Assembly (NCBI RefSeq): GCF_031583595.1
Contig: NZ_CP134145.1
Coordinates: forward strand, 2,480,001 to 2,544,000
Origin: Thalassotalea psychrophila
Lineage (GTDB): Bacteria > Pseudomonadota > Gammaproteobacteria > Enterobacterales > Alteromonadaceae
Length of the DNA stretch: 64,000 bases
Direction: 5' to 3'
The translations under genes were made by a program, and so were the position numbers. Positions 35,776-58,638 of the stretch are shown here, in pieces; the stretch's first letter is position 1; each line of letters opens with the position of its first letter. Under the pieces are notes generated by a model. The model ran no database searches, was not told the origin of the DNA, and saw only the letters and a list, made by a program, of their open reading frames with translations.

Positions 35776-36882
35776 CTAATCGACTAAAATACTTGGTGTT
35801 CTTTTTGGCATTCTAGTTAAGGCTTCATAGCCAATGGTATCAGAATACTTCGCAATTTCATTGACAGGAAGTTCTGGTCCCCATAAGAACACATCATCGC
35901 CAATATCAACGTCTTTGATATCAGTAACGTCAATAGTGAGCATATCCATAGATACACGCCCCGCTAAAGGAGCTATTTGACCATTAATCAATGTAGGCGT
36001 TCCAGATTTTGCCCCCCTTGGATAGCCATCACCATAGCCAATAGCTACAGTGGCAATTTTGGTCGTTCGTGTAGCTGTCCAAGTTTGGTTATAGCCAACT
36101 GACTGCCCTGCTGCAATCTCTCGAATTGAAATAATTGCTGACATTAGAGTCATCACAGGCTTTAATCGTTTTGACGCTTCATTGTCTTTAGTCAAAGGTG
36201 AATTACCATAAAGCATAAAACCAACTCGGTTCCAATCTAATCGAGCTTCAGGGCAAGCAAGCAACCCGGCTGAATTGGACAAACTACAAGGTATAATTTC
36301 GCTATCAGCTAAAGATTTTTGTAGCAGTGTTTTAGTTTCATTAAAGATTTTAATTTGATTTTTCGTTTCCGAACTTTCATGATCATCAGCACTAGAGAAA
36401 TGAGTTGCTAACACTATTTCTTCGCAAACATTAACACTGGCTTTTAATGCTAAATAAATATCATTTACCAGCTTAGGTTGAACCCCTAAACGGTGCATGC
36501 CAGTGTCAACTTTCAACCAAACGTTAACTGGCTGTGAAATATTAGCATTTAACACCCAATCAGCTTGCTGAGAGTTATCAACCATGATCCAAAAATTGTT
36601 CGTAACAGCTATTTCAACTTCATCGTTGCTAAATATACCCTCTAATAACAATATCGGCTTGCTTATCCCTCCGGCTCGAAGCTCAAGAGCTTCTTCAATG
36701 CAGGCAACACCGAATGCAGGTACTAGAGGCTCTAAAATAGATGCAATTACAACGGCACCATGGCCATAAGCATTTGCTTTTACCACGGCTAAATTATTAG
36801 AGTTAGGTGCTAATTCTTGCGCAACTTGATAATTGTGACATAGCGCACTTTGACTTATTAATGCTTTAGTAGGACGAGCCAT
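35776..36882 (-). CDS. alr: alanine racemase
   Basis: PLP-dependent fold-III racemase interconverting D- and L-alanine. The PLP lysine is in VVKANAYGHG (Lys35) and the catalytic tyrosine in VAIGYGDGYPR; GRVSMDMLTIDVTD is the C-terminal signature. The length of 368 residues is usual. It is the last of seven genes transcribed together from 41811, and its ATG overlaps the stop of the aminotransferase by one base. In this setting it would convert the D-alanine made by that aminotransferase to L-alanine, a catabolic use rather than cell-wall supply. That is inference from context. Confidence 0.93.
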   Translation of the reverse strand: MARPTKALISQSALCHNYQVAQELAPNSNNLAVVKANAYGHGAVVIASILEPLVPAFGVACIEEALELRAGGISKPILLLEGIFSNDEVEIAVTNNFWIMVDNSQQADWVLNANISQPVNVWLKVDTGMHRLGVQPKLVNDIYLALKASVNVCEEIVLATHFSSADDHESSETKNQIKIFNETKTLLQKSLADSEIIPCSLSNSAGLLACPEARLDWNRVGFMLYGNSPLTKDNEASKRLKPVMTLMSAIISIREIAAGQSVGYNQTWTATRTTKIATVAIGYGDGYPRGAKSGTPTLINGQIAPLAGRVSMDMLTIDVTDIKDVDIGDDVFLWGPELPVNEIAKYSDTIGYEALTRMPKRTPSILVD

Positions 36883-37739
36883 TAGTAATTATATTTTCCT
36901 GAACTAAATAGTGATTGTGCTGCGAGCCAAACATCACCGATTTCACCGTTACCAACAGCTTTACCGTTAAGTTCTACTACAGGTGCGACTTCTTTGCTTG
37001 AACTAGTTAGCCAAATTTCATCAGCATTTTCAACTTCTTCCATAGTAACTATACGTTCCTCAACTTTCAATGAGCCATCTTTTGTAAGAATGTCGAGTAA
37101 AATCAAACGAGTAATACCAGGTAAAATTTGATTGTCTAAAGGTGGTGTAGCGATAACACCATCTTTAACAACATAAACATTACAAGCACTTGCCTCAGTT
37201 AGTTCGTTGTTTTCATTAAATAATAATGTTTCATTACAGCCTTGTTCAAAGCCATGTTGGTAATGCATTACATTACCTAATAGAGCGGTTGACTTTATGT
37301 GACAACGTTTCCAGCGTAAGTCTTCTGTTGAATTTACTTTATATGTTTTAGCAATAGCTTTATCTGCTACGTTTGCTGCTGGAATTTCAAAAGCGAAAGC
37401 ATACACCGTAGGAGCTACATTATTTGGATATGCATGCGCGCGTTTAATATCGGCACCACGACTTACATGTAAGTAAATCCCTAGATTGCCACCACCATTT
37501 TTTTCAATGAGTGCATCAACAACTTCACGCCACTTGTCTTCTGTCCAATCGAGCTTTATACCTATTAAGTTCATTCCCTCTTGCATGCGAGCAATATGAG
37601 GACCAAAACCGACTAATTTTGTGTCATAGGTCGGGATAACTTCATAAATTCCGTCACCAAACAAAAAACCACGATCCATTGGGGAAATTTTTGCCTGCTG
37701 CATAGGCATAAACGAATCGTTTAAAAATACAATACTCAT
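36882..37739 (-). CDS. dat: D-amino acid aminotransferase
   Basis: Fold-IV PLP aminotransferase that exchanges amino groups between D-alanine and 2-oxoglutarate, giving D-glutamate and pyruvate, and the reverse. The 285 residues match the family; the N terminus has the MDRGFLFGDGIYEV motif, the PLP lysine is Lys149 in RCHIKSTALLGNV, and LTEASACNVYVV with WLTSSSKEV holds the cofactor and phosphate-binding residues. It lies in the D-glutamate operon, where it would drain D-glutamate to 2-oxoglutarate. A branched-chain enzyme is less likely from the RGFLFGDGIYE motif. Confidence 0.9.
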   Translation of the reverse strand: MSIVFLNDSFMPMQQAKISPMDRGFLFGDGIYEVIPTYDTKLVGFGPHIARMQEGMNLIGIKLDWTEDKWREVVDALIEKNGGGNLGIYLHVSRGADIKRAHAYPNNVAPTVYAFAFEIPAANVADKAIAKTYKVNSTEDLRWKRCHIKSTALLGNVMHYQHGFEQGCNETLLFNENNELTEASACNVYVVKDGVIATPPLDNQILPGITRLILLDILTKDGSLKVEERIVTMEEVENADEIWLTSSSKEVAPVVELNGKAVGNGEIGDVWLAAQSLFSSGKYNY

Positions 37740-37753
37740 ATTACTCTCTAATC

Positions 37754-38620
37754 TTAAATAAATTTGGTTAACTTGCGCAGGTTCAAAATAATCTCATCAC
37801 CATACGATGGTGGAAAACTGTCTTCAGTTAAATTATTTTCTCGGGTAACACCATCCACGCTGCCTCTTGCCGATATGTATTTAAGGACAGCAGTTGGGTC
37901 TACCTTACCTAGCAAGTCAATATTTGACCACATACCTAATAACGCAAGGATCCCATAGGCCCCCCAATTGGAAACGTCGGCAATTAGCAGCTCATCACAT
38001 GTTGTTACGGAAGGAGTGATATCTAAACCTGAAATTGCTTGTGTTATATTGCCCATCCCTATTTCATTGCCACCGTCGCCTATGGCAATTGTTGAACATG
38101 TTGCTTCATTTAAATAATGATCAAAACAGGCGCAATAAGCGCTTATATCTTCACCGCGCATATTAAAATAGCCACCGTGTTCAGCAAGACCTGGACGTTC
38201 AATAGATATAATTGCTTGCGGTTTAAGCTTAGCCAGCGTAGCTATTGCTTCTTCTTTTGCATGGGTGAAATCACCTTCTAACAGTTTATGTACTCGATAC
38301 TCATCTTCAGTCAAACTTAAAAATGATTCTCCACCAACTAATATGGGATAAGCACCTAGTTCTTCTAGTGCGTTATATAGAGCAATAGCCCCTACTGGTC
38401 CATCTGTTTCAAATGTATCAGTTACAGGAAATCCTGTTCCGATTAAAATTGTTCCGGTTAAACCCTGTAGACGTTGGGCTGCTCGAAGATAATACCCAGG
38501 CTGTAGTGCGGTTTGTACATCTTTCATACCGCGTGGATTTCGAGCGACAAGTAAATCTTCAATTTGCTTACTTAGTTCAATATCTCTATGGTTTGATTGG
38601 TTTTTATTTAAATCAGTCAA
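37754..38620 (-). CDS. DUF4392 protein, C-terminal-type half of D-glutamate cyclase
   Basis: A 288-residue protein of the DUF4392 family. GTILIGTGFPV, ETDGPVGAIALYNALEELG, AIISIERPGLAEHGGYFNMRG and the glycine-rich IAIGDGGNEIGMGN are the conserved segments. In mitochondrial D-glutamate cyclase (DGLUCY), which turns D-glutamate into 5-oxo-D-proline, a DUF1445 domain is fused to a DUF4392 domain. Here the two are separate genes in one operon, with the oxoprolinase genes between them. It is 14 bases upstream of dat. Activity is inferred from family and context. Confidence 0.85.
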   Translation of the reverse strand: MTDLNKNQSNHRDIELSKQIEDLLVARNPRGMKDVQTALQPGYYLRAAQRLQGLTGTILIGTGFPVTDTFETDGPVGAIALYNALEELGAYPILVGGESFLSLTEDEYRVHKLLEGDFTHAKEEAIATLAKLKPQAIISIERPGLAEHGGYFNMRGEDISAYCACFDHYLNEATCSTIAIGDGGNEIGMGNITQAISGLDITPSVTTCDELLIADVSNWGAYGILALLGMWSNIDLLGKVDPTAVLKYISARGSVDGVTRENNLTEDSFPPSYGDEIILNLRKLTKFI

Positions 38621-38639
38621 AATTTCTCTCTTTAAATAC

Positions 38640-39599
38640 TTAATTTAATAGAAGTTCAATAGGTTCTACTGGATTTAGTTCTATTAATGCCATTTCTATA
38701 TGTAAAATGTTATGTGCTTGTTCAATTGAAATCTCTTCAAAAGTAACTGTAGCACCTGGTCCACATTGAGCTAATTTAGCTAAATCTATCGATAGAACAG
38801 ATCCAATTTTGGGATAGCCACCAATAGTCTGCCTATCGTTCATTAACACAATGGGTTGGCCATCAGCAGGCACTTGTATAGCTCCTAAACAAATACCTTC
38901 AGATAAAATACCATCTATTGAAGGTTTAGTTTTAGGACCATTTAATCGATATCCCATCCGATCACAGCTTTGTGATACGGAATATTTACCAGAGAAGAAA
39001 ATCCCTTTTTGAACTTGAGAGAATGCTTCATGTTGGTAGCCTAGTATTACTCTTAAACTAACTGCAGTATCATAAGTCGGAGGCTTATTTAACTTATTGT
39101 GATGAGCAGTATTGCTTGTAGTGTATGGTAATACTTGACCTTGTAATATTTTTCCGCCATCAAAGCCACCTACTCCTTCACGAACAACAGTGCTTACACT
39201 ATTAAATGTTGGTTTGATATTGAACCCACCTGCAACAGCAAGATATGCATGCATTCCTTCGCTCACAAAGCCTAACTTTACGATATCGCCTTTATAGACA
39301 GATAAAGATTGCCATTGTGGTTTTGTTTGACCATTAATTGTAAGCGGTAATTTAGCACCTGTGACGCAAAAAGTTGTATCAAGTTGTACTTCTAATTCTA
39401 ATCCACCAAAAGTAATCTCTAAACAGCTAGTATTGTCAGCATTTGCACACAATTTATTTGCCCATTTAAATGCACTCGAATCTAATGGACCGCCAATGGT
39501 TAAGCCAATACTGTGACAACCAAATCGACCTAAGTCTTGAATAAGAGTTAACATTCCAGGGTTAATTACTCTAAATCCTAAAGAAGTTGATTCGTTCAT
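38640..39599 (-). CDS. pxpC: 5-oxoprolinase subunit C (KipA-type)
   Basis: A 319-residue subunit of the bacterial ATP-dependent 5-oxoprolinase PxpABC, of the biotin-dependent carboxyltransferase-like family. MLTLIQDLGRFGCHSIGLTIGGPLD at the N terminus, YLAVAGGFNIKP, SCDRMGYRLNGP and the GQPIVLMNDRQTIGGYPKIG segment are diagnostic. It overlaps pxpB by 4 bases. In E. coli and Bacillus the three subunits hydrolyse 5-oxo-L-proline to L-glutamate; whether this set takes the D-form is unknown. Confidence 0.92.
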   Translation of the reverse strand: MNESTSLGFRVINPGMLTLIQDLGRFGCHSIGLTIGGPLDSSAFKWANKLCANADNTSCLEITFGGLELEVQLDTTFCVTGAKLPLTINGQTKPQWQSLSVYKGDIVKLGFVSEGMHAYLAVAGGFNIKPTFNSVSTVVREGVGGFDGGKILQGQVLPYTTSNTAHHNKLNKPPTYDTAVSLRVILGYQHEAFSQVQKGIFFSGKYSVSQSCDRMGYRLNGPKTKPSIDGILSEGICLGAIQVPADGQPIVLMNDRQTIGGYPKIGSVLSIDLAKLAQCGPGATVTFEEISIEQAHNILHIEMALIELNPVEPIELLLN

Positions 39600-40273
39600 A
39601 ACTTGCCACCTAAGGCGATAAATTCATCGCGAGTAATCGCCTTGAATTTTACCGTATCTCCAACAACTACCGGCATTGTTGGTGTTGCCATAAGATCAAA
39701 CATTCGCACAGGACATGATCCTATAATATTCCAACCGCCAGGAGATTCAGCTGGGTAAACTGCTGTTTGTTTATCAGCAATAGCTACCGCTCCTCGAGGT
39801 ACTTTAAGTCTAGGAGTAGTAAGCCTAGGCGCCGCGATACGCGCGTCTACTTCACCTAAATAGGCAAAACCAGGTGCGAAGCCAATAGCGTAAACCCGAT
39901 ATTCAGTTTTTTGATGGATCTCTATGACTTCATCTACAGATAAGTTTGCTAGCTCGGCTAAACGTTCTAAGTCTGCACCAGATTCTGACGAGTAATAAAC
40001 GGGTAATGTCACCACTTTTCCTGTTGTCACATCGGCTGTTGAATTATTAGATAATGTACGTTTTATAGTTGCTTGCACATGAAAGTTATCAGTTAAGAAC
40101 GCATCATATATAACCAGTAAAGATGCATAAGACGGAACGACGTCAATTAATACATCCGCAAGAGCATCTTGAAGTAGCATTGATGCTTGTTGTACTTGTG
40201 CTGATACTTCTGGTGATGCACTATCACCAAAATAAATGATTAACGAATTTTCACCCGCTAGCTCAATTTTCAT
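39596..40273 (-). CDS. pxpB: 5-oxoprolinase subunit B (KipI-type)
   Basis: A 225-residue protein with the KipI/allophanate-hydrolase subunit 1 signature: YAIGFAPGFAYLGEVD, PRLTTPRLKVPRGAVAIADKQTAVYP and SPGGWNIIGSCPVRMFD. It is the partner of PxpC in 5-oxoprolinase. The gene overlaps pxpC and pxpA by 4 bases each, so the three are translated together. The same family includes the Bacillus sporulation inhibitor KipI, but the neighbours here point to oxoprolinase. Confidence 0.93.
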   Translation of the reverse strand: MKIELAGENSLIIYFGDSASPEVSAQVQQASMLLQDALADVLIDVVPSYASLLVIYDAFLTDNFHVQATIKRTLSNNSTADVTTGKVVTLPVYYSSESGADLERLAELANLSVDEVIEIHQKTEYRVYAIGFAPGFAYLGEVDARIAAPRLTTPRLKVPRGAVAIADKQTAVYPAESPGGWNIIGSCPVRMFDLMATPTMPVVVGDTVKFKAITRDEFIALGGKL

Positions 40274-41004
40274 TTAGAAATACGCTCTCTAATTTCTTCA
40301 ATAGCATTAACGCCATCCATATTATCGCCATGCACACATAATGTGTCTGCATGAATCGCTAAAGTATTACCACTAACTGTTGTTACTGTGCCATGGCTAC
40401 AAAGTTGTTCGACTTGCGCGATCATTTTTTCTTTATTGTGTACGGCGCCTACTTTACTACGGGCTAGCAGTTTGCCATCATCGTCATAACAACGATCGGC
40501 AAAGGCTTCAAACCATAGTTTTATGCCTAACTGCTTCGCTTCTTGTTGATGAATTTTAAAGGCTGGTGTTGCTTGCAGCATTAAGGTAATCGGGTATGGA
40601 AATTCAGCAATTGCTTCCATAATTGCCGCTCGCACATCAATATTTGCCATCATGTCATTATATAAAGCGCCATGAGGTTTTACATAGACTAACGTTAAAC
40701 CTTGAGTTTGGGCCATGCCACTTATAGCAGACATTTGATAATGCATAAAAGCAACAATTTCTTGTTTTGAACATTTCATTGAACGACGTCCAAAACCAAC
40801 CAAATCTGGATAGCCAGGATGTGCACCAACCATAACATTATGTGTTTTTGCTAATGATAGAGTGTTTTGTATAACTAAAGGGTCTCCAGCATGGAAACCA
40901 CAAGCAATATTTGCTTGATCAATAAACGGCATTACCGCAGCATCTAGGCCCATAGTCCAAGAGCCATAGCTTTCACCTAAATCACAATTTAATAATAACG
41001 ACAT
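40270..41004 (-). CDS. pxpA: 5-oxoprolinase subunit A (LamB/YcsF family)
   Basis: A 244-residue TIM-barrel-like subunit. LLNCDLGESYGSW at the start, IDQANIACGFHAGDPLV, VMVGAHPGYPDLVGFGRR and VKPHGALYNDM are the LamB/YcsF signature and include likely metal and catalytic residues. With PxpB and PxpC it forms the ATP-dependent 5-oxoprolinase. It is 18 bases downstream of the DUF1445 gene. Confidence 0.94.
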   Translation of the reverse strand: MSLLLNCDLGESYGSWTMGLDAAVMPFIDQANIACGFHAGDPLVIQNTLSLAKTHNVMVGAHPGYPDLVGFGRRSMKCSKQEIVAFMHYQMSAISGMAQTQGLTLVYVKPHGALYNDMMANIDVRAAIMEAIAEFPYPITLMLQATPAFKIHQQEAKQLGIKLWFEAFADRCYDDDGKLLARSKVGAVHNKEKMIAQVEQLCSHGTVTTVSGNTLAIHADTLCVHGDNMDGVNAIEEIRERISK

Positions 41005-41022
41005 AATAATTCCCTTATTCGT

Positions 41023-41811
41023 TTATAAAACAGCTAATTTACTGTTTGGCAAATCGGTTACTAACATACAACCTGGGCTGTGAGTTATACAAAATGGCGG
41101 TTTCGCTTGTTCTAGTGCGACTTGAGGGGTCACACCACATGCCCAAAATACGGGTTGTTCACCATCAAAAATGGTTACCGCATCGCCATAGTCGGTAGAG
41201 TTTATATCATCGATACCAATCATGCTTGGGTCGCCAAAATGTACAGGTGCACCGTGAACCGATGGAAACCTAGTACATATTTGTATTGCTCGTATTGCAT
41301 CACTCGGATTAAAAGGACGCATACTTACCACCATATTGCCTTTAAAAGGCCCCGCTGGTTTGCACTCAATGTTAGTTCGATACATAGGAACATTAACTTG
41401 CTCGCTAATATTGCGAACATCAAGGCCATCAGCGATTAAACTTTCTTCAAACGAGAATGAACAACCTAAGGCAAAGGTAACTAAATCATCACGCCAGTAC
41501 TCAGTAATATCAGATACTTCTTCAGTCATTACACCATCTTTAAAAATTCGATAGCTAGGAATATCTGTTCTTAAATCTAAATCAACTGCAACATCATCTA
41601 AGTGTACATCACCGGGGTTCTCCGAAACACTAATTAACGGGCAAGGCTTCTGATTTAATTGACAAAACTTTAAAAAATCTGCAGCCCAATCTTTTGGCAA
41701 CATCACTAAATTACATTGCACAAAACCATGGCAATATCCGGAAGTGTTAGAGTTATGCTCTCCACTTCGTATTTTTTGTCTCAACTGACTAGGGCTAATA
41801 TTGGTACTCAT
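41023..41811 (-). CDS. DUF1445 protein, N-terminal-type half of D-glutamate cyclase
   Basis: A 262-residue protein of the DUF1445 (YcsI) family, which is often found with oxoprolinase genes. Conserved segments are [57 protein letters not shown] and PVHFGDP, with the C-terminal [13 protein letters not shown] and [12 protein letters not shown]. Mammalian DGLUCY fuses this domain to DUF4392. It heads the seven-gene operon (DUF1445, pxpA, pxpB, pxpC, DUF4392, dat, alr). The upstream gap contains a weak copy of the palindrome found near the LysR gene. Confidence 0.88.
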
Positions 41812-42185
41812 GTTTATATGGACACTTTATTAATTATGACTATTAGTACTATTACTCTATATTGCTTTACAGAGTATGCATAGTCTAGGCGAAAGGTTTT
41901 TTATTATAGTCATTTAGATTAAAAATTGTATATTATTGAATAATTAATCAAATATAAAATAGAAAATGGCGTTTCTGATATATCAAATTAATTATTTTAT
42001 TTTTGAAATTTATAAATGATATTGAAATTCACTATTTATTAAGGAAATCGCTATTAATAGATGCCATAACCTTTATCTATACCATTCAAAACTCTTGTGA
42101 ATATTTATTAATGGCAAAGTCTTTTATTCTAAATGTATAAATTATGTTAACCAAAATCAAATGTTAGAGCAATGAAGGTGAAATC
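41812..42185. promoter_or_regulatory. upstream region of the D-glutamate cyclase/oxoprolinase operon
   Basis: A very AT-rich 374-base gap between two divergent genes. At 42064-42082 it contains CCATAACCTTTATCTATAC, which matches the LysR-region palindromes at 48641 and 54787 at its two ends (CCATAACC and TATAC) but not in the right half of the core. No clear promoter is seen for the operon. Confidence 0.4.
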
Positions 42186-42508: not shown

Positions 42509-42535
42509 AAAAACCGAGGACGCTTTCACATCCTC
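42508..42535 (-). terminator. terminator of the D-aminoacylase transcript
   Basis: On the minus strand GAGGATG and CGTCCTC pair (one T-G) around TGAAAG and are followed by GG and six T residues, 36 bases beyond the stop at 42571. Confidence 0.83.
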
Positions 42536-42570
42536 AATTCAGAAAATTGAATATTTATTTTTAGTTAAGG

Positions 42571-44148
42571 TTATTCAAAGATAAATTTACCGGCAAGCTT
42601 GTTAAGATATTGCTCATTCTCAATAACTACATTGCCATTAATAATAACGGCATCTACACCTTTAGAATATTCATTCCATTTGGCGAAGCTTGCTTGTGGA
42701 GCAAACTCATCTGCATCAAAAATAATAACATCGGCTTTAAAATCTAACTTCAATGAACCGCGCTGCTGCAAACCTAGAATTTTTGCTGTTTGACTAGAAC
42801 TTCTAGAAATAAACTCTCCTATGGTAAGTAATTTTTTGTTGCGTACATATTCACTATATTTTTGTGGAAAGCTGGCAAACTTTCGTGGATGGCCGTTGGT
42901 ACCATCAGAAGATGTAACTACCCAAGGTTTCAACATAAACGCTTCGACATCTGTTGGCGACATATTGAAAGATGCGACTCTTACATCGCCTTCTTGTACT
43001 AACTGCATTGCCGTAGCTACAGCAGTTAAATTACGTTGTTCAGCAATCTGCTTTAAATTTAAGCCGACTAAATTCTGTTCCTTAAAGGCAGTTACAAGTA
43101 ACGAAGTTGGCCCGCCTCTACGTCTGATATTTTCTTTAATTTCTTGGTTAAGCTTTTCAGACAGTTTTGGATCATTTAAACGTTGATAAAAAGCCTCTTT
43201 TGAATCAGCCATAACCCATTTGGGCATTACGGCACTATGCAACTTGGTGCCAGATGCAAGCCATGGATATTGATCTGCAGATATACTAATACCGTTTTTT
43301 TGTGCTAATTCAATTTTTTCAATTGCTTGTTGGCTTTGCCCCCAAACGTCGACGCCTAAGGCTTTAATATGAGCCAAGTGTAAATGAATATTTGCTTGTT
43401 CAGCAACTTCGATTGCTTCATCAAGAGATGACAAAAAACCAATATTGAAGGTACTTTCATCACGCATATGTGTGTCATAGATGCCGTTATGTTTGCTGGC
43501 AATTTTAGCCAGTGCTATCACCTCTGCAGTATTTGCATAACTTCCGGGCACATAATATAAGCCACTTGATAAACCAAGTGCCCCATCTATCATTGCTTGT
43601 TCAACTAATGCGGACATCTCTGTAAGTTCAGCTTCTGTTGCAAAGCGCTGTTCTCGGCCCATTACCTGCTCACGGACGCTACCGTGACCTACAAATAATG
43701 CGACATTAGTGCCAATACCATTTTCTTCAAGTAGATTGGCGGTAGCGGCTATATCAACAGGACCTTCACCATCATTACCATTAACAACAGTCGTTACACC
43801 TTGAGTTAAATAATTTAAGTTATGATTTTTATCTGAGCTGCGTAACTCTGCCAAGCTATGTGTATGCGGATCAATAAAGCCTGGACTTACAACTTTACCT
43901 TTAGCATCAATGATTTTTTTAGCATCAACATTGTGCTCACCAGTTTGGTGTAAACCACAAATAACTTGTTCACAAATAGCAATATCCAAGGATTGAGGGG
44001 TTAAATTATCACCAGTATAAACAGTCCCGTTTATGATCAATAAATCAACATTATGAGCAACACTTACTAAACTATTATCAGGGGAGCACGAAGCCAACAC
44101 AGTTAAACTGGTCGCTAGCATTATTAATTTATGTTTAAAATTTTTCAT
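42571..44148 (-). CDS. lipoprotein N-acyl-D-amino-acid deacylase
   Basis: Metal-dependent amidohydrolase of the D-aminoacylase family, which removes acyl groups from N-acyl-D-amino acids. A lipoprotein signal (LTVLASC-S, Cys21) puts it in the envelope. Metal and catalytic segments visible are GFIDPHTHS, SSGLYYVPGSYAN, YDTHMRDES, LHLAHIKALG, DQYPW and TSSDGTNGHPRKFASFP. The 525 residues fit the family. It lies 15 bases after the M14 carboxypeptidase gene on the same strand and is next to D-glutamate catabolism genes, so N-acyl-D-glutamate or D-glutamyl compounds are plausible substrates; that is inference. Confidence 0.88.
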   Translation of the reverse strand: MKNFKHKLIMLATSLTVLASCSPDNSLVSVAHNVDLLIINGTVYTGDNLTPQSLDIAICEQVICGLHQTGEHNVDAKKIIDAKGKVVSPGFIDPHTHSLAELRSSDKNHNLNYLTQGVTTVVNGNDGEGPVDIAATANLLEENGIGTNVALFVGHGSVREQVMGREQRFATEAELTEMSALVEQAMIDGALGLSSGLYYVPGSYANTAEVIALAKIASKHNGIYDTHMRDESTFNIGFLSSLDEAIEVAEQANIHLHLAHIKALGVDVWGQSQQAIEKIELAQKNGISISADQYPWLASGTKLHSAVMPKWVMADSKEAFYQRLNDPKLSEKLNQEIKENIRRRGGPTSLLVTAFKEQNLVGLNLKQIAEQRNLTAVATAMQLVQEGDVRVASFNMSPTDVEAFMLKPWVVTSSDGTNGHPRKFASFPQKYSEYVRNKKLLTIGEFISRSSSQTAKILGLQQRGSLKLDFKADVIIFDADEFAPQASFAKWNEYSKGVDAVIINGNVVIENEQYLNKLAGKFIFE

Positions 44149-48478: not shown

Positions 48479-48487
48479 TTTTCTCAC

Positions 48488-49824: not shown

Positions 49825-49862
49825 ATAAAGGCAGTGATTAACTTTCACTGCCTTTATTTTTG
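49825..49862. terminator. bidirectional terminator between lysR and glutamate dehydrogenase
   Basis: A perfect 13-bp stem, ATAAAGGCAGTGA with TCACTGCCTTTAT, and a seven-base loop, flanked by A-rich and T-rich tracts. It serves both converging genes. Confidence 0.92.
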
Positions 49863-49876: not shown

Positions 49877-52800
49877 CTAACTAAGCAACGTGCGCATCTG
49901 TCTGTTGGCAAAATATAACTTGTCGATAGTAAGGACCCCTGCAACTTTTAGATCATCAATTACTCTTTCCACCCTACTTAAATCAGCTACCTTTGTATCT
50001 GCCCACTTATCTATAGCAACATCACAAGCAAACTTGTTATACCTTGTACTGATTTTTAGCACTAATTGCTCTCTTAACTCAAGTAAGTCGAGTAATAAAG
50101 AAAACAATGCCATTCTAGACCAATGATCTGTCGTTTCAACAATTTCCGTTTGTTCAATCAACCATGAAATACCAATTATTTGCGTTATTTTTTGGTAACT
50201 CACCAATACTTGTTCAACAGAAACTTTTAATTCTGCCGCCGTTTTAACAATGTCACAAAAAACCACACTTGAAACTTTTAGTTGATGAATTTTATCGACT
50301 ATACTGCGACTATTTTCTCCCGCTTGTAACTGGTATAAGGATTTGCTTACAGGAGTAAACGGTAATATTACTTCGTCACTATTGAGCTGTTGCAATAAGT
50401 TGATTCCCGGACTGAATTTAGCAACAACACTATTTATGCTTGATTGATGGTCATCATGGTTTATAAACCAAATTGCCATTAACCTATAAAAACGTTGCAC
50501 CTCAACTAACATCTTCACTTGAATTTCAGCAGAAACTATACCGTCTAAAGATTCTATTTCTTTCCATATGCTATCTAACTGGAATATCTCTTTAGTGATA
50601 ATAAAGGCTTTTACAATCTGCTCGATACTTGCACCAGTTTGCTCTCTAACCGCGTGAATGCCGCCCCGATTAAAAATTTCATTAGCAACGGCAGTAGCTA
50701 TAATTTGCTTGGCCAGAGGATGCTCTACAATTTCTTGTTGATATTTTTCCTGCAGTACAGGAGGAAATGCCGCCAATAAGTACTTTTCAAAGTACTCATC
50801 ATCAAGCAAACTTGTTTGCTTTAATAAGGCATTATTTACATCCATTTTTGAGTAAGCCATTAATACCGCTAGTTCAGGACGTGTAAGGCCTTTTTTATTT
50901 AAGATACGTGTTTGTAATTCATCATCATCAGGCAGATATTCAAGTTCTCGATTGAGATCGACACTGTCGACAAGGTAATGGGTCAAACGAGTAAAACTGT
51001 CAAAGTGGGCATGGTTATTCGCTTCATCCAAACTCAACGCTTGTACTTGGTAAGTGTTGTTCTGCAACACCATTTTACTTACGTCAGTGGTCATTTGTTC
51101 AAGTAAAGAGTCTCGTTCACCCTTAATTAAATTCCCGTCAGATAATAAACGATTAAGCAAAATTTTGATGTTTACTTCATTGTCGGAACAATTCACACCT
51201 GCAGAATTATCCACGGCATCGGTATTTACTCTACCACCGGCTTTAGCAAACTCGATCCTTGCCAATTGCGTACAACCTAAGTTACCGCCTTCTCCAATGA
51301 CTTTACATTGTAGTTGGGCAGCGTTAACTCTTAGGGGATCATTACCTTTGTCGCCAACGTCATTATTATTTTCTTCTGTTGCTTTCACGTAGGTGCCAAT
51401 ACCGCCAAACCAAAGTAAATCAGCATTTGCTTTGAGGATATAACTAATTAGTTGGTTGGGGGATAAAGTTTCTACATGGCCAGGAATCTTCAACAATTTC
51501 TTAATTTGTTCTGATGGAGTAATTCTTTTAAGGCTACGGCTAAATACCCCGCCACCCGCAGAAATCAGCTCAGCGCTGTAATCTACCCATGATGATCGCG
51601 GCAGATTGTACAGCCTTTGTCGCTCTTTAAAACTTGTTGAGGCCACAGGAGCAGGATCAATAAAAATATCACGATGATCAAACGCTGCCACAAGTTTAAT
51701 AGTGTTTGAAGATAACATGCCATTGCCAAATACATCGCCAGACATATCACCAATACCAATGGCAGTGATCTCATCATGCTGAACATCTACGTCCATTTCT
51801 CGAAAGTGCCTTTGTACTGACACCCAAGCCCCCTTTGCGGTAATGCCCATTTTTTTATGGTCGTAACCCACACTACCACCCGAGGCAAACGCATCACCTA
51901 ACCAAAAGTCATAATCATTAGCAAGTTCATTAGCAATATCTGAAAACGTTGCAGTTCCTTTATCAGCAGCAACCACCAGATAACTGTCATCTCCATCAAA
52001 ACACACTACTTGCTGTGGTTTTATGATCCCTTGTTGAGTGTTGTTATCGGTAATATCAAGCAAGGATGATATAAATAATTTATAACATTCAATAGCTTCG
52101 CTAGTTATTTCGTCTCTACTACCGTCACTTGGGAGCTGCTTAGGCACAAAGCCACCTTTAGCGCCTTGTGGTACAATAACGACGTTTTTAACTTGCTGTG
52201 CTTTTACTAATCCTAAAATTTCGGTACGAAAATCTTCTTCTCTATCTGACCAACGTAGCCCCCCCCGAGAAACAGCACTAAAACGTAAGTGAACCCCTTC
52301 CACTCTTGGTGAGTAAACAAAGGTTTCTACATAAGGTCTAGGTTGAGGAGCATCTTCAATTTCTCCACTTAAGATCTTAAATGAGCAATATGATTTTTGC
52401 TGACCAGTATTTGATAATTGATAAAAATTGGTTCTTACTGTCGCTGAAATAGCAGCGATGAAATTACGCAGAATTCGATCATGATCTATCTTAGAAACTT
52501 TATTTAAACGACCAAACAGGCACTTAGCTATATCATTGGCTAATAACATGCGTTTAGAAATAGAACTGTTATTTAATGAAAAGCGCTGTTCAAATAATGC
52601 GACTAAATCGCCGACAATTTCTGGGTATGCAATTAATGCCTGCTGAAAATACTCTTCACTGTAACCAAGGCCAAGTTGACGCAAGTATTTACCATAAGCA
52701 CGAATAATGACAATTTGCCTAATATTGATATTGGCAGTTAGTAATAATTTATTGTAGCCATCATTTTCAATTTCTTGCGCCCAGATGTCAGTTAAAGCTT

Positions 52801-54637
52801 GCTCTAAATTAGCTTTAACTTGTTTTAAATCGAGAGTTTTATCACTAGGACATTCAAGTGTATAGCTATACAAATCATTGCTTGAGTTATTATCAGCCAG
52901 CACTTTAAAACTAAATTCATCTAATGGTCGAAAACCAAGATTTTCCAAAATTGGAATTGAATCACTTAAAGCAATACCTTGTGCTTGAGAATAAATGTTT
53001 AAACGTAATAAATTATGTTGGTCTTGCTCATTACGATAAATTTGAAATTGATACTTTTGATCTTGGTTAAGCGTTTCAAAATACTCTATATCTTTAGCTG
53101 CGGCTAACGCTGAAAACTTCTCACGATAACTTTTGGAAAAACAATTACTGTATTTATTAATTAACTGTGTTGCTTGTGCATCATCCCAGCGCTCTTGAAT
53201 AAGCGTACATAGACTTTCCATCCAACTTTTTGTTTTTTCTTCAATACGGTTAATTAAATCGGTAAGATTTACATTGCTTGATGCTTGTTCGCCTTTAACC
53301 AGAGTGAAATGCCATTGCGCCAGATAATTATCATTAAGCATTGAGCACCGAGATAATATTTTCCCACCATAAAATTCACACAATTGTGCTTCAATTTCAT
53401 CGCGTAAATCAGTACAAAAAGCATCTTTAGAAACAAAGACCAGAGCCGATACCTGCTGGTTAAAGTTATTTTCACGAATAAATGTTCCACATTTACTTTG
53501 CGCATTAAGGTTATAAATGCCTTTAGCCAAAGAAAACAAGTTAGCAGCGTTGCTTTCAAAAATTTCACGCTTGGGCAAAGCTTTGAGAATATGCCTAAAT
53601 TTTTTGTAATTATGACTTTCTTCTTTATAGTTAACGCGATCTAGAACCGCATTTAACTTAGCTTGTAAATAAGGTATTTTAATAGGATTTTGACTATTTA
53701 CAGCCTGAGTAAATAAGCCGATAAATCGATGTATAGCAATCACATCACCCTGCGCAGAGTATTCTTTTATGCTTATCTGATCATAGTAATCGTTACGATG
53801 AATCTTTGCCTTTACGGTTGATTTTGAAATCAGCAAGGCTTGCTCTGAATCGATAAAATGTTGCAGCTCTTTGCTGTTAATTCTAAGTACTGATTTATCA
53901 AGTGTGAGCGGATCAATACTTTGCTTAAAAATTCCCAAACTTTCTATATGATTTTTTTGTTTATTGCGCTCATCGATAATAAATGGGTAATAACCTAGAA
54001 AAGTAAAATTATCCTGGCACAGCCAATGCAGAAAATCTTGCACTTGCTCACTATTATCTCCGTTGTTTGCGTGATTACTTTGAACGTCAGCTACAGCTTT
54101 TGCTTGTTTAAGCATTACCGGCCAGTCGTCGGTCACCATCTTAACTTCTATTAACAGAGTAAGAAGTTTTTCCTTTAACGAAGTACAGGCTTTGTCGTTT
54201 AATAAGCTACTTAGTTCAATATAAATAACGGATACATCGCTTTCTTGCTGTATATCAGTATCAATTGTTTCTTGCTCGTTATTAATAACCGGATGCAAGC
54301 AATTTTTGATTCTATATCCCTCAGCAAGCAATAAATTAGTTATTGAGTCAAAAATAAACGGCTTATCATCACTGATAATATGCAAAGTTGAGACGTTCGC
54401 GCCATCTTGCCTTAGTGTTTTTATAACAACTTTATTTTCTTGGCGTTGTCGTGTAGTAAAGCTCTCCCAAAGAGATAGAGCAAGATCAAAACGGCGCTCT
54501 AATGGCATCAGTTGAACTTCGTCATTTAAAGAGGATTCAAGTAACACTTGCGAAAACTCGGTAAAGGGCTGCACGTTAGCTTCACTGTAGTTGTTAGCAA
54601 TATAACTGTTTAAGTTCTGAGTTATTGCTGTAGTCAT
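49877..54637 (-). CDS. gdhB: NAD-dependent glutamate dehydrogenase, large (about 180 kDa) type
   Basis: Oxidatively deaminates L-glutamate to 2-oxoglutarate, a catabolic enzyme. With the start at ATG 54637 (AAGGTGA seven bases upstream) it has 1586 residues, the size of the bacterial 180-kDa class. The catalytic core is in the middle: GGLRWSDREEDFRTEILGLVKAQ, VVIVPQGAKGGFVPKQLP (substrate lysines), and the NAD-domain segments ending in IGEGGNLGCTQ and GGRVNTDAVDNSAGVNCSDNEVN. The N-terminal 700 residues hold ACT-like regulatory regions. It would turn L-glutamate from this locus into TCA-cycle carbon. Divergent from the decarboxylase-like gene. Confidence 0.95.
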   Translation of the reverse strand: MTTAITQNLNSYIANNYSEANVQPFTEFSQVLLESSLNDEVQLMPLERRFDLALSLWESFTTRQRQENKVVIKTLRQDGANVSTLHIISDDKPFIFDSITNLLLAEGYRIKNCLHPVINNEQETIDTDIQQESDVSVIYIELSSLLNDKACTSLKEKLLTLLIEVKMVTDDWPVMLKQAKAVADVQSNHANNGDNSEQVQDFLHWLCQDNFTFLGYYPFIIDERNKQKNHIESLGIFKQSIDPLTLDKSVLRINSKELQHFIDSEQALLISKSTVKAKIHRNDYYDQISIKEYSAQGDVIAIHRFIGLFTQAVNSQNPIKIPYLQAKLNAVLDRVNYKEESHNYKKFRHILKALPKREIFESNAANLFSLAKGIYNLNAQSKCGTFIRENNFNQQVSALVFVSKDAFCTDLRDEIEAQLCEFYGGKILSRCSMLNDNYLAQWHFTLVKGEQASSNVNLTDLINRIEEKTKSWMESLCTLIQERWDDAQATQLINKYSNCFSKSYREKFSALAAAKDIEYFETLNQDQKYQFQIYRNEQDQHNLLRLNIYSQAQGIALSDSIPILENLGFRPLDEFSFKVLADNNSSNDLYSYTLECPSDKTLDLKQVKANLEQALTDIWAQEIENDGYNKLLLTANINIRQIVIIRAYGKYLRQLGLGYSEEYFQQALIAYPEIVGDLVALFEQRFSLNNSSISKRMLLANDIAKCLFGRLNKVSKIDHDRILRNFIAAISATVRTNFYQLSNTGQQKSYCSFKILSGEIEDAPQPRPYVETFVYSPRVEGVHLRFSAVSRGGLRWSDREEDFRTEILGLVKAQQVKNVVIVPQGAKGGFVPKQLPSDGSRDEITSEAIECYKLFISSLLDITDNNTQQGIIKPQQVVCFDGDDSYLVVAADKGTATFSDIANELANDYDFWLGDAFASGGSVGYDHKKMGITAKGAWVSVQRHFREMDVDVQHDEITAIGIGDMSGDVFGNGMLSSNTIKLVAAFDHRDIFIDPAPVASTSFKERQRLYNLPRSSWVDYSAELISAGGGVFSRSLKRITPSEQIKKLLKIPGHVETLSPNQLISYILKANADLLWFGGIGTYVKATEENNNDVGDKGNDPLRVNAAQLQCKVIGEGGNLGCTQLARIEFAKAGGRVNTDAVDNSAGVNCSDNEVNIKILLNRLLSDGNLIKGERDSLLEQMTTDVSKMVLQNNTYQVQALSLDEANNHAHFDSFTRLTHYLVDSVDLNRELEYLPDDDELQTRILNKKGLTRPELAVLMAYSKMDVNNALLKQTSLLDDEYFEKYLLAAFPPVLQEKYQQEIVEHPLAKQIIATAVANEIFNRGGIHAVREQTGASIEQIVKAFIITKEIFQLDSIWKEIESLDGIVSAEIQVKMLVEVQRFYRLMAIWFINHDDHQSSINSVVAKFSPGINLLQQLNSDEVILPFTPVSKSLYQLQAGENSRSIVDKIHQLKVSSVVFCDIVKTAAELKVSVEQVLVSYQKITQIIGISWLIEQTEIVETTDHWSRMALFSLLLDLLELREQLVLKISTRYNKFACDVAIDKWADTKVADLSRVERVIDDLKVAGVLTIDKLYFANRQMRTLLS

Positions 54638-54673
54638 AATAATCACCTTAATATGAAATTTAAATTCAACCAA

Positions 54674-54899: not shown

Positions 54900-56177
54900 A
54901 TGATAAGAAAACAGCAGATAATACAAAAAGCTATTGCGGCTAATGTTATTGATAGTGACCTAACAGCTATTGGTATAATGGATTTCGACGGTTTACAAAA
55001 AACTGTTGCCGCAGCCTATGATGCTTTTCCAACAAACTTTTTTCATACCTTTGCAGTAAAAGCCAATGCACTGGTTGAGGTGTTAAAAGTATTACGCGAA
55101 TACGGTATGGGCGCTGAAGTAGCAAGCCCAGGAGAATTGTTAATTGCTAAGAATGCTGGATTTAGTAACAAAGATATTATATTTGATTCACCTGCTAAAA
55201 CGTTAAATGATTTACGCACATGCATTAAAAACGACATCTCATTAAACATAGATAACCTGCAAGAGCTTGCCCGTGTAGACAAATTAATGCTGGAATTCCC
55301 AAATACCAAATCAGTAATTGGATTTCGTATTAACCCACAAATTGGCGGTGGAGCGATAAGCTCAACCAGTACTGCTACAGCAACATCAAAATTTGGCTAC
55401 CCATTAGCCGATGGTAGCAATAGACAAGAGCTAATTAATATATATCAACAACGCCCATGGCTCACTAGCTTACATACCCATAGTGGCTCTCAAGGGTGTG
55501 CATTAGAATTAATGGCCAAAGGTATTTTGGTTATCACTGAACTAGCCGAAGAAATTAATAACAACACTGGTACACAACAAATTGCTCGCTTAGATATTGG
55601 TGGCGGTTTACCCGTTAACTTTGCCTCAGAAGAAGTAACTCCTAGTTTTGCTGATTATGCACAAATACTAAAACAGACTGTTCCAGTTTTGTTTACTGAT
55701 AAATATCAGGTTAAAACTGAATTTGGTCGAGCAATTGCAGCAAAAAATGGCGTTATTATTACACGAGTTGAATACACCAAAAATTCTGGTGGACGACATA
55801 TTGCCACCACTCATGCGGGCGCACAGATAATGACCAGAACAGCATTTTTACCAACATCATGGCCGATACGCGTAACCGGTTATAGTGCGGTTGGCCTTGA
55901 AAAAACAGCTGAAGAATTTGAAATTGTTGCAACCGACGTGGCTGGCCCATGTTGTTTTGCTGGTGATCTGATTTGTGCAGATCAACAATTACCAAAACTT
56001 GTCCCTAACGATTACGTCATGGCTCATGATACTGGGGGCTATTATTTTAGTAATCACTTTGATTATAATAGCTTACCTCGGGTTGGCGTATTCTCAGTAA
56101 GCGGCAATGATGAAAATTTAAATTTCAACTGCATTCGAAAAGCTGACTCTCTTGACGATGTCGCTAATAATATGTAA
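54900..56177 (+). CDS. fold-III PLP enzyme of the diaminopimelate/ornithine decarboxylase family
   Basis: A 425-residue enzyme of unknown substrate. The PLP lysine is in HTFAVKANALVEVL (near residue 54), the phosphate-binding GGG in DIGGGLPVNF, and EFGRAI and CCFAGDLICADQQLP match the second-subunit active-site region of DAP decarboxylase, while HDTGGYYFSNHFDYNSLPRVGV replaces the usual DAGAY motif. Relatives include meso-DAP decarboxylase, D-basic-amino-acid decarboxylases and the L-glutamyl-carrier-protein decarboxylase BtrK. Its place beside glutamate genes, behind the shared palindrome, suggests a glutamate-like substrate. Not assigned as lysA because lysine synthesis genes are absent here. 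Confidence 0.75.
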   Translation: MIRKQQIIQKAIAANVIDSDLTAIGIMDFDGLQKTVAAAYDAFPTNFFHTFAVKANALVEVLKVLREYGMGAEVASPGELLIAKNAGFSNKDIIFDSPAKTLNDLRTCIKNDISLNIDNLQELARVDKLMLEFPNTKSVIGFRINPQIGGGAISSTSTATATSKFGYPLADGSNRQELINIYQQRPWLTSLHTHSGSQGCALELMAKGILVITELAEEINNNTGTQQIARLDIGGGLPVNFASEEVTPSFADYAQILKQTVPVLFTDKYQVKTEFGRAIAAKNGVIITRVEYTKNSGGRHIATTHAGAQIMTRTAFLPTSWPIRVTGYSAVGLEKTAEEFEIVATDVAGPCCFAGDLICADQQLPKLVPNDYVMAHDTGGYYFSNHFDYNSLPRVGVFSVSGNDENLNFNCIRKADSLDDVANNM

Positions 56178-56313
56178 CTAAAGTCACCTTAATCTGACAA
56201 CCTAAATTACTGAGAGAAAGTTAAATTATTCATAGTAAAATCAAAAAAAGTCATTCTTCTATTTAACAGTTGATGAAAAATAAATATAAAAATTAAGAGG
56301 TAAATACTCTCCC

Positions 56314-57525
56314 ATGAATATTGATATTGGTATTATAGAAACATTATTAGTCGCATTATTGATCCTATTTGCAGGCTATTTTTGCAATAGTAAAATAAAA
56401 TTTCTACGTAATAATAATATTCCAGAGCCAGTCGTTGGCGGTATAGTATTTTCTTTAATTGCAGCTTTTGCGTACAGCTATTTAGATATTCAATTTAACT
56501 TTGACATGAGCTTTAAAAAGCCATTTATGACGATATTTTTTACCACAGTAGGTTTAGGTGCCAGTTTTAAACTGTTACTTAAAGGTGGCCCTAAAGTAGT
56601 GTTGTTTTTAATCGTTACCTCTACATATTTAATTTTGCAAAATGCTGTAGGTGTAACTCTTGCGATGACAACTGGCATGGATCCTCTAATGGGTTTAATT
56701 GGTGGTTCGGTAACACTGTCAGGCGGACATGGTAACGGCGCAACGTATGCCGATTTGTTTATAACAGAATATAATATGGATGGTAGTGTTTTTGAGTTAG
56801 CGATGGCCGCGGCTACATTAGGCCTAGTGCTCGGCGGTTTAGTTGGCGGACCGGTCAGCAAACGCCTAATAAAGCGCAATAACTTAAAAGCTAATGAATT
56901 TCATGAAGAACTTGATGACACTGTAACATTTAATCCTGAAGATCATGATTTAGTTACTCCGAAAAAAATGATGGAAACGTTATTTGTTATCCTATTATGT
57001 ATGGTTGTAGGTCACTTTGGACATGTTGCTTTAAAAGAAATGGGCGTTGTTTTACCCTCTTTTCTAATACCACTTTTATTTGGTGTATTAGCTACCAACA
57101 TATGTGAATTTTCAAAAGCTTATACTATCAGTCGGCCCTGTATCGATTTATGGGGCACTATGTCTTTGTCAATATTTTTAGCGATGGCATTGATGTCGTT
57201 AAAAATTTGGGAATTAGCAAATCTTGCTGGCCCGATGATGTTTATAATTTTAATACAAACCGTAATACTAATGATGTTTGCATATTTTGTGACCTTTAGA
57301 ATTATGGGAAAAAATTATGATGCGGCAATTATGGCTGGTGGACATTGTGGTTTTGGTCTAGGTGCAACACCGACGGCAGTAGCAAATATGGAAGCTTTAG
57401 TTGCTCGTCATGGCCCTTCTCCGCAAGCCTTCTTAGTAGTGCCTTTAGTTGGTGCTTTTTTTATCGATATTACAAATGCCTTGGTGATTCAGCTATATTT
57501 AAGTTTACCTTTCGTTGGAAACTAA
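56314..57525 (+). CDS. gltS: sodium/glutamate symporter
   Basis: Na+-coupled glutamate importer of the GltS/ESS family in the inner membrane, 403 residues with about ten helices in two inverted halves. Family segments visible are LILFAGYFCNSKIKFLRNNNIPEPVVGGIVF, the re-entrant loop motif GGSVTLSGGHGNGATYADLF and its partner AIMAGGHCGFGLGATPTAVANMEAL. GltS from E. coli carries both D- and L-glutamate, which suits this locus. It follows the fold-III gene by 136 bases and precedes the channel gene by 15, apparently one transcript. Confidence 0.95.
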   Translation: MNIDIGIIETLLVALLILFAGYFCNSKIKFLRNNNIPEPVVGGIVFSLIAAFAYSYLDIQFNFDMSFKKPFMTIFFTTVGLGASFKLLLKGGPKVVLFLIVTSTYLILQNAVGVTLAMTTGMDPLMGLIGGSVTLSGGHGNGATYADLFITEYNMDGSVFELAMAAATLGLVLGGLVGGPVSKRLIKRNNLKANEFHEELDDTVTFNPEDHDLVTPKKMMETLFVILLCMVVGHFGHVALKEMGVVLPSFLIPLLFGVLATNICEFSKAYTISRPCIDLWGTMSLSIFLAMALMSLKIWELANLAGPMMFIILIQTVILMMFAYFVTFRIMGKNYDAAIMAGGHCGFGLGATPTAVANMEALVARHGPSPQAFLVVPLVGAFFIDITNALVIQLYLSLPFVGN

Positions 57526-57540
57526 CCATAGAGATATTAA

Positions 57541-58638
57541 ATGTTACGTAAGTTTATTTTTTTAATTAGCTTTATGTCGGCAGTATTACTGCCGAATAAT
57601 GCAGTACTTGCAGAAACTGATAATGGTCAAGTATCCCAGCAACAAATATTACGCATAGGCACGATGCATTCGCCACCGTTTTCAATTAAGAATTCAGACA
57701 ATAGTTGGTCTGGGATCAGTATTGAATTGTGGCGTGAAATTGCAATTGAATTGAATATTGAATACGTATTTGAAGAGAGTACCCTGCCAGAGTTACTTGA
57801 TGGTGTTCAGCAAGGCGATTTAGATGCGGTTATTGCAGCAATAACCATTACTGAAGAACGTGAAGCGTTAATGGATTTCACCCATCCACACCATACAACC
57901 GGTTTTGCCATTGCTACAAAATCCGATCAAGAAAGTAATATCTGGGAATCTACTTTTTTCCAATTATTTTCTTGGCAATTTATTAAGGTTGTGGGTACTT
58001 TATTTTTATTGCTGTTTTTTGTTGGTTGGCTAATGTGGTTAGTTGAACATAAGCATAAATCTAAATGCGAAGACAGTCACACGATTCAACACGTAAACGA
58101 AGGGTTTTGGTGGGCAGCAGCAACCATGACAACCGTTGGTTACGGCGATAAAACTCCACTCACTAAGGTAGGTAGAGCTATTGGCGTAGTGTGGATGTTT
58201 ACTGCATTGATGATAGTAGCAAGTTTTATCGCCGCATTCTCAAGTATCCTCACAGTACAAAAAATTAATACCAATATCCAAAGCTTACATGATCTTAATA
58301 AGATGCATATAGCTACACTAGACGGTTCTACCAGCGAAATATTTCTCAAAAATAACGGTTATATGGTCGTCAACTTTGCCAATATAAGTGATGGGCTGGA
58401 AGCGGTTGCACAAGGAAAAATGGATGCTATGGTATATGATGCACCATTATTACAGTACTTTATAGAAACCGAATTTAAAGGTGAAATTGAAATATCTCCT
58501 GCAACTTTTGAGCGCCAAGATTACGGCTTTGCCTTAACTCAAGGCAGTGAGTTAAGAGAGCCATTAAATCGTGTATTGTTGCGGATTGTACGCAACGAAA
58601 GTTGGCGAGAAAAACTGGAAAAATATTTAGGCAAGTAG
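57541..58638 (+). CDS. prokaryotic ionotropic glutamate receptor (GluR0-like K+ channel)
   Basis: Ligand-gated channel of 365 residues in which a periplasmic amino-acid-binding protein is interrupted by a pore. Order: signal peptide (1-24), ligand lobe S1 (about 36-140) with ITITEEREALMDF, whose Arg107 matches the carboxylate-binding arginine of AMPA receptors, first membrane helix (about 148-169), pore loop with the potassium filter TVGYG (198-202), second helix (about 212-240), lobe S2 with DGSTSE (ligand side-chain contacts) and an acidic residue in VYDAP (Asp300). Synechocystis GluR0 has the same plan. It sits 15 bases after gltS. Confidence 0.88.
   Translation: MLRKFIFLISFMSAVLLPNNAVLAETDNGQVSQQQILRIGTMHSPPFSIKNSDNSWSGISIELWREIAIELNIEYVFEESTLPELLDGVQQGDLDAVIAAITITEEREALMDFTHPHHTTGFAIATKSDQESNIWESTFFQLFSWQFIKVVGTLFLLLFFVGWLMWLVEHKHKSKCEDSHTIQHVNEGFWWAAATMTTVGYGDKTPLTKVGRAIGVVWMFTALMIVASFIAAFSSILTVQKINTNIQSLHDLNKMHIATLDGSTSEIFLKNNGYMVVNFANISDGLEAVAQGKMDAMVYDAPLLQYFIETEFKGEIEISPATFERQDYGFALTQGSELREPLNRVLLRIVRNESWREKLEKYLGK

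Follow-up and report, generated by a model that had tools for sequence, protein, structure and literature searches.

The 64,000-nucleotide window analysed here, part of the single 4.8 Mb contig of the Thalassotalea psychrophila genome (G000), holds between positions 35776 and 58638 a block of 15 genes that the original prediction had read as one 23-kb system for stripping and burning D-glutamate. Each of the 15 genes is an open reading frame at the place given by that prediction and matches the family it had named, and the gene content of the block is far above chance. We distinguish a module A, made up of a TonB-dependent receptor (TBDR), an M14 carboxypeptidase, a D-aminoacylase, a LysR regulator and often the symporter GltS, from a module B, made up of DUF1445, pxpABC, DUF4392, dat and alr. 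Next to gltS lies the gene for LysAl (54900..56177, + strand), as we call the LysA-like fold-III enzyme, dependent on pyridoxal phosphate (PLP), of the window and its close relatives. LysAl is a candidate D-glutamate decarboxylase.

The lysAl gene is followed on the + strand by gltS, encoding a sodium/glutamate symporter (56314..57525; TIGR00210 score 451.7 above the cut-off of 310.75), and by the gene of a GluR0-like glutamate-receptor channel (57541..58638; PF00060 Lig_chan 68 > 31, PF00497 and PF07885; PDB 2pyy and 1ii5), whose TVGYGD motif, seen by eye, is presumably the channel filter. On its other side a large NAD-glutamate dehydrogenase (GDH; 49877..54673, - strand; PF05088 Bac_GDH 825 > 23), a divergent second copy, converges with the LysR gene (48910..49797, +; LysR model 86 > 28), and a two-way terminator-like stem (49825..49857) separates the two. 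The rest of module A is on the - strand and comprises the TBDR (45443..48487; PF00593 and PF07715; barrel 95 > 27), a lipoprotein M14 carboxypeptidase (44164..45345; PF00246 57 > 22) and a lipoprotein D-aminoacylase-like amidohydrolase (42571..44148; PF07969 Amidohydro_3 77 > 30; NF006560 182 < 340). The M14 protein best matches PDB 4a37 (E 9e-11), with 8v3m at E 4e-5, and its solved relatives include cytosolic-carboxypeptidase-like protein 5; the closest PDB entry of the amidohydrolase is the D-aminoacylase 1m7j, and the N-acyl-D-glutamate deacylase 3gip was also matched. Both lipoprotein calls fit putative signal peptides ending in Cys, as judged by eye. Curated cut-offs are passed by Alr, GltS, PxpA, PxpB, DUF1445, DUF4392, Bac_GDH, M14, the TBDR barrel, LysR and Lig_chan. 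The names D-amino acid aminotransferase, PxpC and D-aminoacylase have weaker support, as all three fall under cut-offs, those of equivalog models for the first two, with domain models upholding the latter two.

The fold-III PLP enzyme of the original prediction is indeed a LysA homologue, but its 227 bits lie under the LysA cut-off of 297.9 (TIGR01048). Since the same genome encodes a true LysA elsewhere (543 bits), we rejected LysAl as the LysA of the lysine pathway. LysAl keeps the residues of fold-III PLP decarboxylases, namely K54 (PLP lysine), H194, E274 (pyridine glutamate), C352, which we take to be the catalytic cysteine of enzymes of the diaminopimelate decarboxylase (DAPDC) type, and Y381 (phosphate tyrosine). 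Both arginines that hold the distal carboxylate in DAPDC are also kept. The glutamate facing the distal amine (Glu315 of the T. maritima enzyme) is replaced by F353, which is invariant in 27 sequences, and in the window protein Tyr289 is replaced by Leu. The best solved relatives of LysAl are decarboxylases; no racemase is named among the structural relatives listed, which is not evidence against a racemase. Its nearest named relatives come from Thalassotalea nanhaiensis (89%) and T. fonticola (87%), and the named database entries among the 120 relatives listed are mostly labelled diaminopimelate decarboxylase.

The surroundings of LysAl point to a known pathway, the DgcN-DgcA route for D-glutamate in marine bacteria, which is described in excerpts of PMC10845958 and PMC12363236. 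Among 147 genomes of the family, the window genome included, the D-aminoacylase has matches at E<=1e-30 in 42. Close relatives of it (at least 56% identity) occur in 25, of which 18 hold DgcA over cut-off, five LysAl, none both and two neither; the last two are 85% and 87% complete. We fetched 18 of the 20 aminoacylase loci without LysAl, and 17 of them (all except that of G048) carry DgcN and DgcA, each named from one representative over the cut-off of its NCBIfam model. These 17 dgc loci all have LysR, M14 and aminoacylase genes, 16 have a TBDR, nine gltS and six an NhaC-like transporter, and the window LysR clusters with their dgcN-adjacent LysR at 54-69% identity. With LysR, M14, aminoacylase, TBDR and often gltS thus in common, the capture half of the block is the dgc context, with the fold-III enzyme at the dgcN-dgcA position, which the original prediction had overlooked. 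LysAl occupies this position in the window and in four others of the 25 genomes, and four of these five have an extra, divergent GDH. No LysAl relative lies within the 17 dgc loci. The window locus has neither dgcN nor dgcA, and a profile search of the whole window genome, which covered DgcA and not DgcN, found no DgcA over cut-off (best 51.8 bits against 400).

Close relatives of LysAl (at least 51%) are present in six of the 147 family genomes and, within the genus, in four of 15. When GTDB contigs were scanned with two peptide patterns, at least 37 LysAl loci were obtained, a lower bound because the patterns had to match exactly; five of them (L103, L108, L132, L134 and L125) were taken as the genomes G003, G135, G001, G121 and G188. 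The record titles include Colwellia, Pseudoalteromonas, Aliiglaciecola, Thalassotalea, Arenicellales, Pseudomonadales and Lysobacterales, and also Ruegeria, Marinibacterium and Rhodospirillales. By tblastn the 37 loci contain gltS (24), LysR (22), TBDR (21), M14 (19), GDH (15), an NhaC-like transporter (11), the D-aminoacylase (10), gamma-glutamyltransferase (GGT; 9), PGA_cap (5), gabD (3), the class-III aminotransferase AT45 (3), gabT (2) and GluR0 (1), and at none of them was DgcN or DgcA found. Counts from called open reading frames are lower, with 13 instead of 15 for GDH, nine instead of ten for the aminoacylase and, over two clusters, seven instead of nine for GGT. The Ruegeria record L130 has the order GGT, LysAl, GDH. 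The three loci with gabD belong to three lineages, Pseudoalteromonas denitrificans, a Psychrobiaceae metagenome-assembled genome (MAG) and a Marinibacterium MAG, and the first and last also have gabT. No gabD was found at the 17 dgc loci or at 29 DUF1445 loci. Succinate-semialdehyde dehydrogenase over cut-off is present in all six LysAl genomes of the family, compared with 79 of the 147 (P 0.02, kinship ignored), which is weak support for a route through gamma-aminobutyrate (GABA).

A protein of the PGA_cap cluster, whose members at L113 and L122 score as PF09587 (poly-gamma-glutamate capsule type), is encoded near aminoacylase, LysAl or GluR0 genes at eight of the 17 dgc loci and at LysAl loci including that of G052 (L056, L067-L069, L072, L077-L079 and L083; L113, L114, L118, L122 and L133).

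We then characterized the GDH that accompanies LysAl. Among twelve chosen genomes, those with a LysAl-GDH pair (G000, G052, G003 and G135) have two GDH copies and the other eight have one. The LysAl-linked copy of the window is only 35% identical to the other copy of its own genome, 35-38% identical to six other-copy GDHs of the family and 38% identical to two LysAl-linked copies of Rhodobacterales. The LysAl-linked copies of Alteromonadales group in one clade, with support 100/100, in a 23-row tree. Between the window and the Rhodobacterales records the identity is 63-64% for LysAl and only 38% for the linked GDH, which suggests different GDH partners in the two classes; a twofold origin of the pairing is not shown, the tree having three groups and no outgroup. 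In G188 (L125 and L167) a tblastn match to the LysAl-linked GDH spans 1595 of 1598 residues but is not one called open reading frame, the gene being damaged or mis-assembled.

We propose that module A serves both the cell surface and the start of catabolism. The TBDR would take up oligomers containing D-glutamate, the two lipoproteins, M14 carboxypeptidase and D-aminoacylase, would trim them to free glutamate, GltS would import it and the LysR protein would sense it. GltS as a carrier of D-glutamate is plausible because in Vibrio fischeri gltS alleles, all of them mutant in the available excerpt of PMC12502697, let a D-glutamate auxotroph grow on traces of D-glutamate. Where DgcN-DgcA of the relatives would turn D-glutamate into L-glutamate, this branch would use LysAl, converting D-glutamate to GABA and CO2. 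GabT and GabD, encoded elsewhere in the genome, would carry GABA on to succinate, and the extra GDH would burn L-glutamate and renew 2-oxoglutarate for GabT. We give a probability of roughly one half to LysAl being a PLP-dependent D-glutamate decarboxylase. The observations behind this are the gene identities, the modularity, the position of LysAl in place of DgcN-DgcA, the conserved residues, the GDH pairing and gabD at three loci; its substrate, stereochemistry and reaction are predicted, and the D form is preferred because of the aminoacylase, the dgc swap and the stereochemistry of DAPDC.

Several observations weigh against this assignment. In the predicted structure the LysAl loop 312-318, which carries R313, has a pLDDT below 50. 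An engineered T. maritima enzyme with E315F is without activity on D-glutamate and E315Q has only a trace (5.9 mU/mg); as E315F is inactive, F353 alone fails to explain a short substrate. At four of the 37 loci (L124, L126, L127 and L138) no glutamate-related neighbour was found within the limits used, and L131 has only a TBDR match, plus a LysR by clustering. The stretches read at 34 of the 37 loci lack gabD, and the gabD of the window genome, over cut-off, lies 1.9 Mb from LysAl, adjoining a class-III aminotransferase for which no GabT model gave a score. In addition, DgcA over cut-off occurs outside the LysAl stretch in ten of 36 LysAl genomes from GTDB (all but that of L115), five of them Alphaproteobacteria, and one further genome has a match under cut-off.

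A racemase would account for the pairing with GDH no less well than a decarboxylase. GabT consumes 2-oxoglutarate and produces L-glutamate, so the GDH ties LysAl to L-glutamate or 2-oxoglutarate and does not decide between the two activities. As a PLP-dependent glutamate racemase, LysAl would supply L-glutamate to the extra GDH, with the same net step as DgcN-DgcA, at whose position it stands. The presence of GDH at 15 of the 37 loci in two bacterial classes, the gene order of the Ruegeria record and the scarcity of gabD would all agree with this. However, LysAl shares its PLP, cysteine and pyridine-glutamate residues with DAPDC, decarboxylases are its best relatives of solved structure, gabD is linked in three lineages, and a racemase would be redundant in the ten genomes that hold DgcA. 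We had considered a genome-wide exclusion of LysAl and DgcA, which held in six of six genomes of the family sample and failed in those ten of 36 GTDB genomes. LysAl is thus not a plain substitute for DgcA, which slightly favours a different product, and we regard the racemase as rather unlikely. Even as a racemase, LysAl would to our knowledge be a new kind of enzyme for that reaction.

We also think it unlikely that LysAl acts on another substrate, such as L-glutamate, D-aminoadipate, a gamma-glutamyl compound or carrier-bound glutamate as for BtrK, so that its link to D-glutamate would be indirect. BtrK is among the closest solved structures, GGT is near LysAl at nine loci and the E315F enzyme of T. 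maritima does not accept D-glutamate. The frequency of gltS and GDH at the LysAl loci indicates free glutamate, however, and the D-aminoacylase and the dgc swap indicate the D form.

Module B is a seven-gene operon on the - strand with gaps of -4 to 19 bp, as had been predicted. It begins with DUF1445 of the D-glutamate cyclase family (41023..41811; PF07286 219 > 25; NF003969 414 > 324; PDB 3db9 and 2pif), followed by the 5-oxoprolinase subunits pxpA (40270..41004; NF003816 343 > 213), pxpB (39596..40273; TIGR00370 160.6 > 145.6) and a pxpC-like gene (38640..39599; PF02626; TIGR00724 273 > 230; equivalog NF045499 220 < 500). DUF4392, or GLUCM-like_C, comes next (37754..38620; PF14336 212.9 bits against 28; PDB 4dwz); it belongs to the acidic metal-site family of TON_0340 and is the second half of the animal D-glutamate cyclase. 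Then come dat, a class IV aminotransferase resembling D-amino-acid transaminase (36882..37739; TIGR01121 236.6 < 277.45; NF005209 242 < 320), with that enzyme nonetheless among its best-matching families, and last alr, alanine racemase (35776..36882; TIGR00492 355.7 against 168). Upstream of DUF1445 a sigma-70-like site, TATACA-18-TATAAT, matches the consensus (41903..41932, - strand); the region has 42 such sites against a mean of 68.5 in shuffles, i.e. fewer than in shuffles.

Module B would handle glutamate lactams and leftover D-glutamate. In this scheme, drawn from the encoded families, PxpABC would open 5-oxo-L-proline, DUF1445/DUF4392 would interconvert D-glutamate and 5-oxo-D-proline, Dat would move the amino group of D-glutamate onto pyruvate to give 2-oxoglutarate and D-alanine, and Alr would return the latter as L-alanine. 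The original prediction had implied that cyclase and oxoprolinase together burn D-glutamate. Hydrolysis of the lactam leaves the alpha carbon unchanged, so the cyclase plus PxpABC would give back D-glutamate, and we rejected a conversion to L-glutamate by these proteins alone on stereochemistry. Either both lactams are opened in parallel, with Dat and Alr removing D-glutamate, or an unseen epimerase would take part. The latter, with 5-oxo-D-proline epimerised to the L-lactam and reopened to L-glutamate by PxpABC and ATP, would give each of the five core proteins a step in a single line. DUF1445 and DgcA, each present in 31 of the 147 genomes, coincide in one (Fisher p 0.005, phylogeny ignored), as such a route might lead one to expect; the avoidance is weaker by genus, with two genera, counted by eye, holding both. 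No known lactam epimerase is among the operon members. DUF4392, once likened to an Asp/Glu/hydantoin racemase (excerpts of PMC5339696), was considered as a two-cysteine racemase. It has one well-kept cysteine in 27 sequences; as such a racemase requires two, we rejected that role. Its solved metal-site relative TON_0340, in which six acidic residues are invariant, is reported to be a phosphatase dependent on Mn (excerpts of PMC5132392), and the mouse fusion protein is reported as a D-glutamate cyclase with no racemase activity and no L-glutamate formed (PMC5339696). We consider the epimerising route quite improbable. Both domains of the predicted D-glutamate cyclase are there, its function being transferred from an animal fusion protein to a split bacterial pair.

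The core of module B recurs in the family. In the DUF1445 neighbourhoods of the 30 other genomes (7.6-20 kb each, genes grouped by clustering of open reading frames) we found DUF4392 in 25, pxpA in 23, pxpB in 22, pxpC in 21, dat in 15 and alr in one (G052). Four neighbourhoods (G067, G026, G139 and G039) have DUF1445 and DUF4392 without pxpA-C, as would be expected for two halves of one enzyme, and in five DUF4392 is not in the stretch. At L038 and L041 (G017 and G063) DUF1445 adjoins RecG and SBP_bac_3 genes, with no DUF4392 or pxp within 20 kb. A GH3 hexosaminidase-like gene is present in 12 of the 30 neighbourhoods, NamZ, a MurR-like regulator and an SSF transporter in ten each and MurQ in seven, with at least two of these five in ten; the names come from one scored representative per cluster. 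Module B is thus often accompanied by genes for the use of MurNAc, which fits cell-wall D-glutamate as the source.

The two halves agree, each from its own gene context, with the predicted theme of D-glutamate. We read the stretch as two separate glutamate-scavenging modules that were joined in a few Thalassotalea-type genomes. All 15 genes stand in the same order in three genomes of the genus (the window genome, G052 and G185), and alr within the module B operon is confined to these three among the loci examined. G188 keeps the right-hand part from aminoacylase to GluR0, its contig ending about 0.7 kb past the stretch read. GluR0 adjoins gltS only in the four LysAl-bearing genomes of the genus among these loci. 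The three-genome order would suit a single co-regulated D-glutamate system of 23 kb, which we nevertheless find unlikely. Each module recurs, but the two are rarely kept together: module A genes adjoin DUF1445 in one of the 30 other neighbourhoods (G052), and DUF1445 is absent from 23 of the 25 genomes in which the aminoacylase has a close relative. LysAl is restricted to a minority of the genus, and a terminator-like stem of 13 pairs with a T-rich tail, a consensus match, lies 3' of the aminoacylase gene (42511..42540, - strand), within the 759 bp that separate this gene from module B; the region has 20 such sites compared with 12.5 in shuffles. We thus rejected the single system as originally stated.

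At L101 (G097) a DUF1445/pxp cluster ends with dat and, directly after it, a GluR0-like channel gene, which connects this channel family to glutamate genes in a second way; the other ten fetched GluR0 loci outside the genus have no gltS, DUF1445, pxpA or dat. The window TBDR is 94% identical to that of G185, 42% to that of G052 and 40% to that of G188 (loci compared: L055, L166 and L167), and its gene seems to be exchanged locally because the adjoining M14 and aminoacylase are 79-91% identical in those genomes. A tRNA-Ser gene (35534-35624), the sole match of an Rfam scan, lies just past alr, where the block ends on the left, and to the right of GluR0 a LysR gene is divergent from a DUF1254/DUF1214 protein gene (59369-61534).

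A wider proposal, which we place just short of an even chance, is that LysAl founds a natural D-glutamate decarboxylase family, mostly filed as diaminopimelate decarboxylase by the public records that name it. It would open an irreversible route from D-glutamate through GABA to succinate that serves marine Gamma- and Alphaproteobacteria, draws on D-glutamate of peptidoglycan or poly-gamma-glutamate and is distinct from DgcN-DgcA, racemases and D-amino acid dehydrogenases. Among the matches listed in the open-licence PMC literature neither a D-glutamate decarboxylase nor this gene combination is described. Cell-wall D-glutamate is part of the slowly used marine D-amino acid pool; if the assignment is true, an activity is hidden under another database name and offers a second marine route for it. 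By gene context, module B connects a family known from animal mitochondria, that of D-glutamate cyclase, with the catabolism of bacterial cell walls and makes a bacterial role testable.

Compared with known systems, module B shares its DUF1445 and DUF4392 domains with DGLUCY, the mammalian D-glutamate cyclase (excerpts of PMC5339696). In the window these are separate genes with pxpABC between them and Dat and Alr added, whereas DGLUCY is a fusion. Like known PxpABC, the window set has three consecutive subunit genes with operon spacing, but it is joined by DUF1445, DUF4392 and dat, and its PxpC stays below the equivalog cut-off. LysAl has the fold, the PLP and catalytic residues and the distal-carboxylate arginines in common with LysA; it differs in its score, in the Phe replacing the distal-amine Glu, in the Leu at Tyr289 in the window and in adjoining gltS and GDH. 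BtrK, an L-glutamyl-carrier-protein decarboxylase, resembles LysAl in fold and in the glutamyl class of the substrate proposed for LysAl; the two are 22% identical when aligned by structure. The DgcN-DgcA pathway shares with the window the TBDR, M14, D-aminoacylase and LysR surroundings, with GltS at about half of the dgc loci, and in place of DgcN and DgcA the window carries LysAl and a second GDH.

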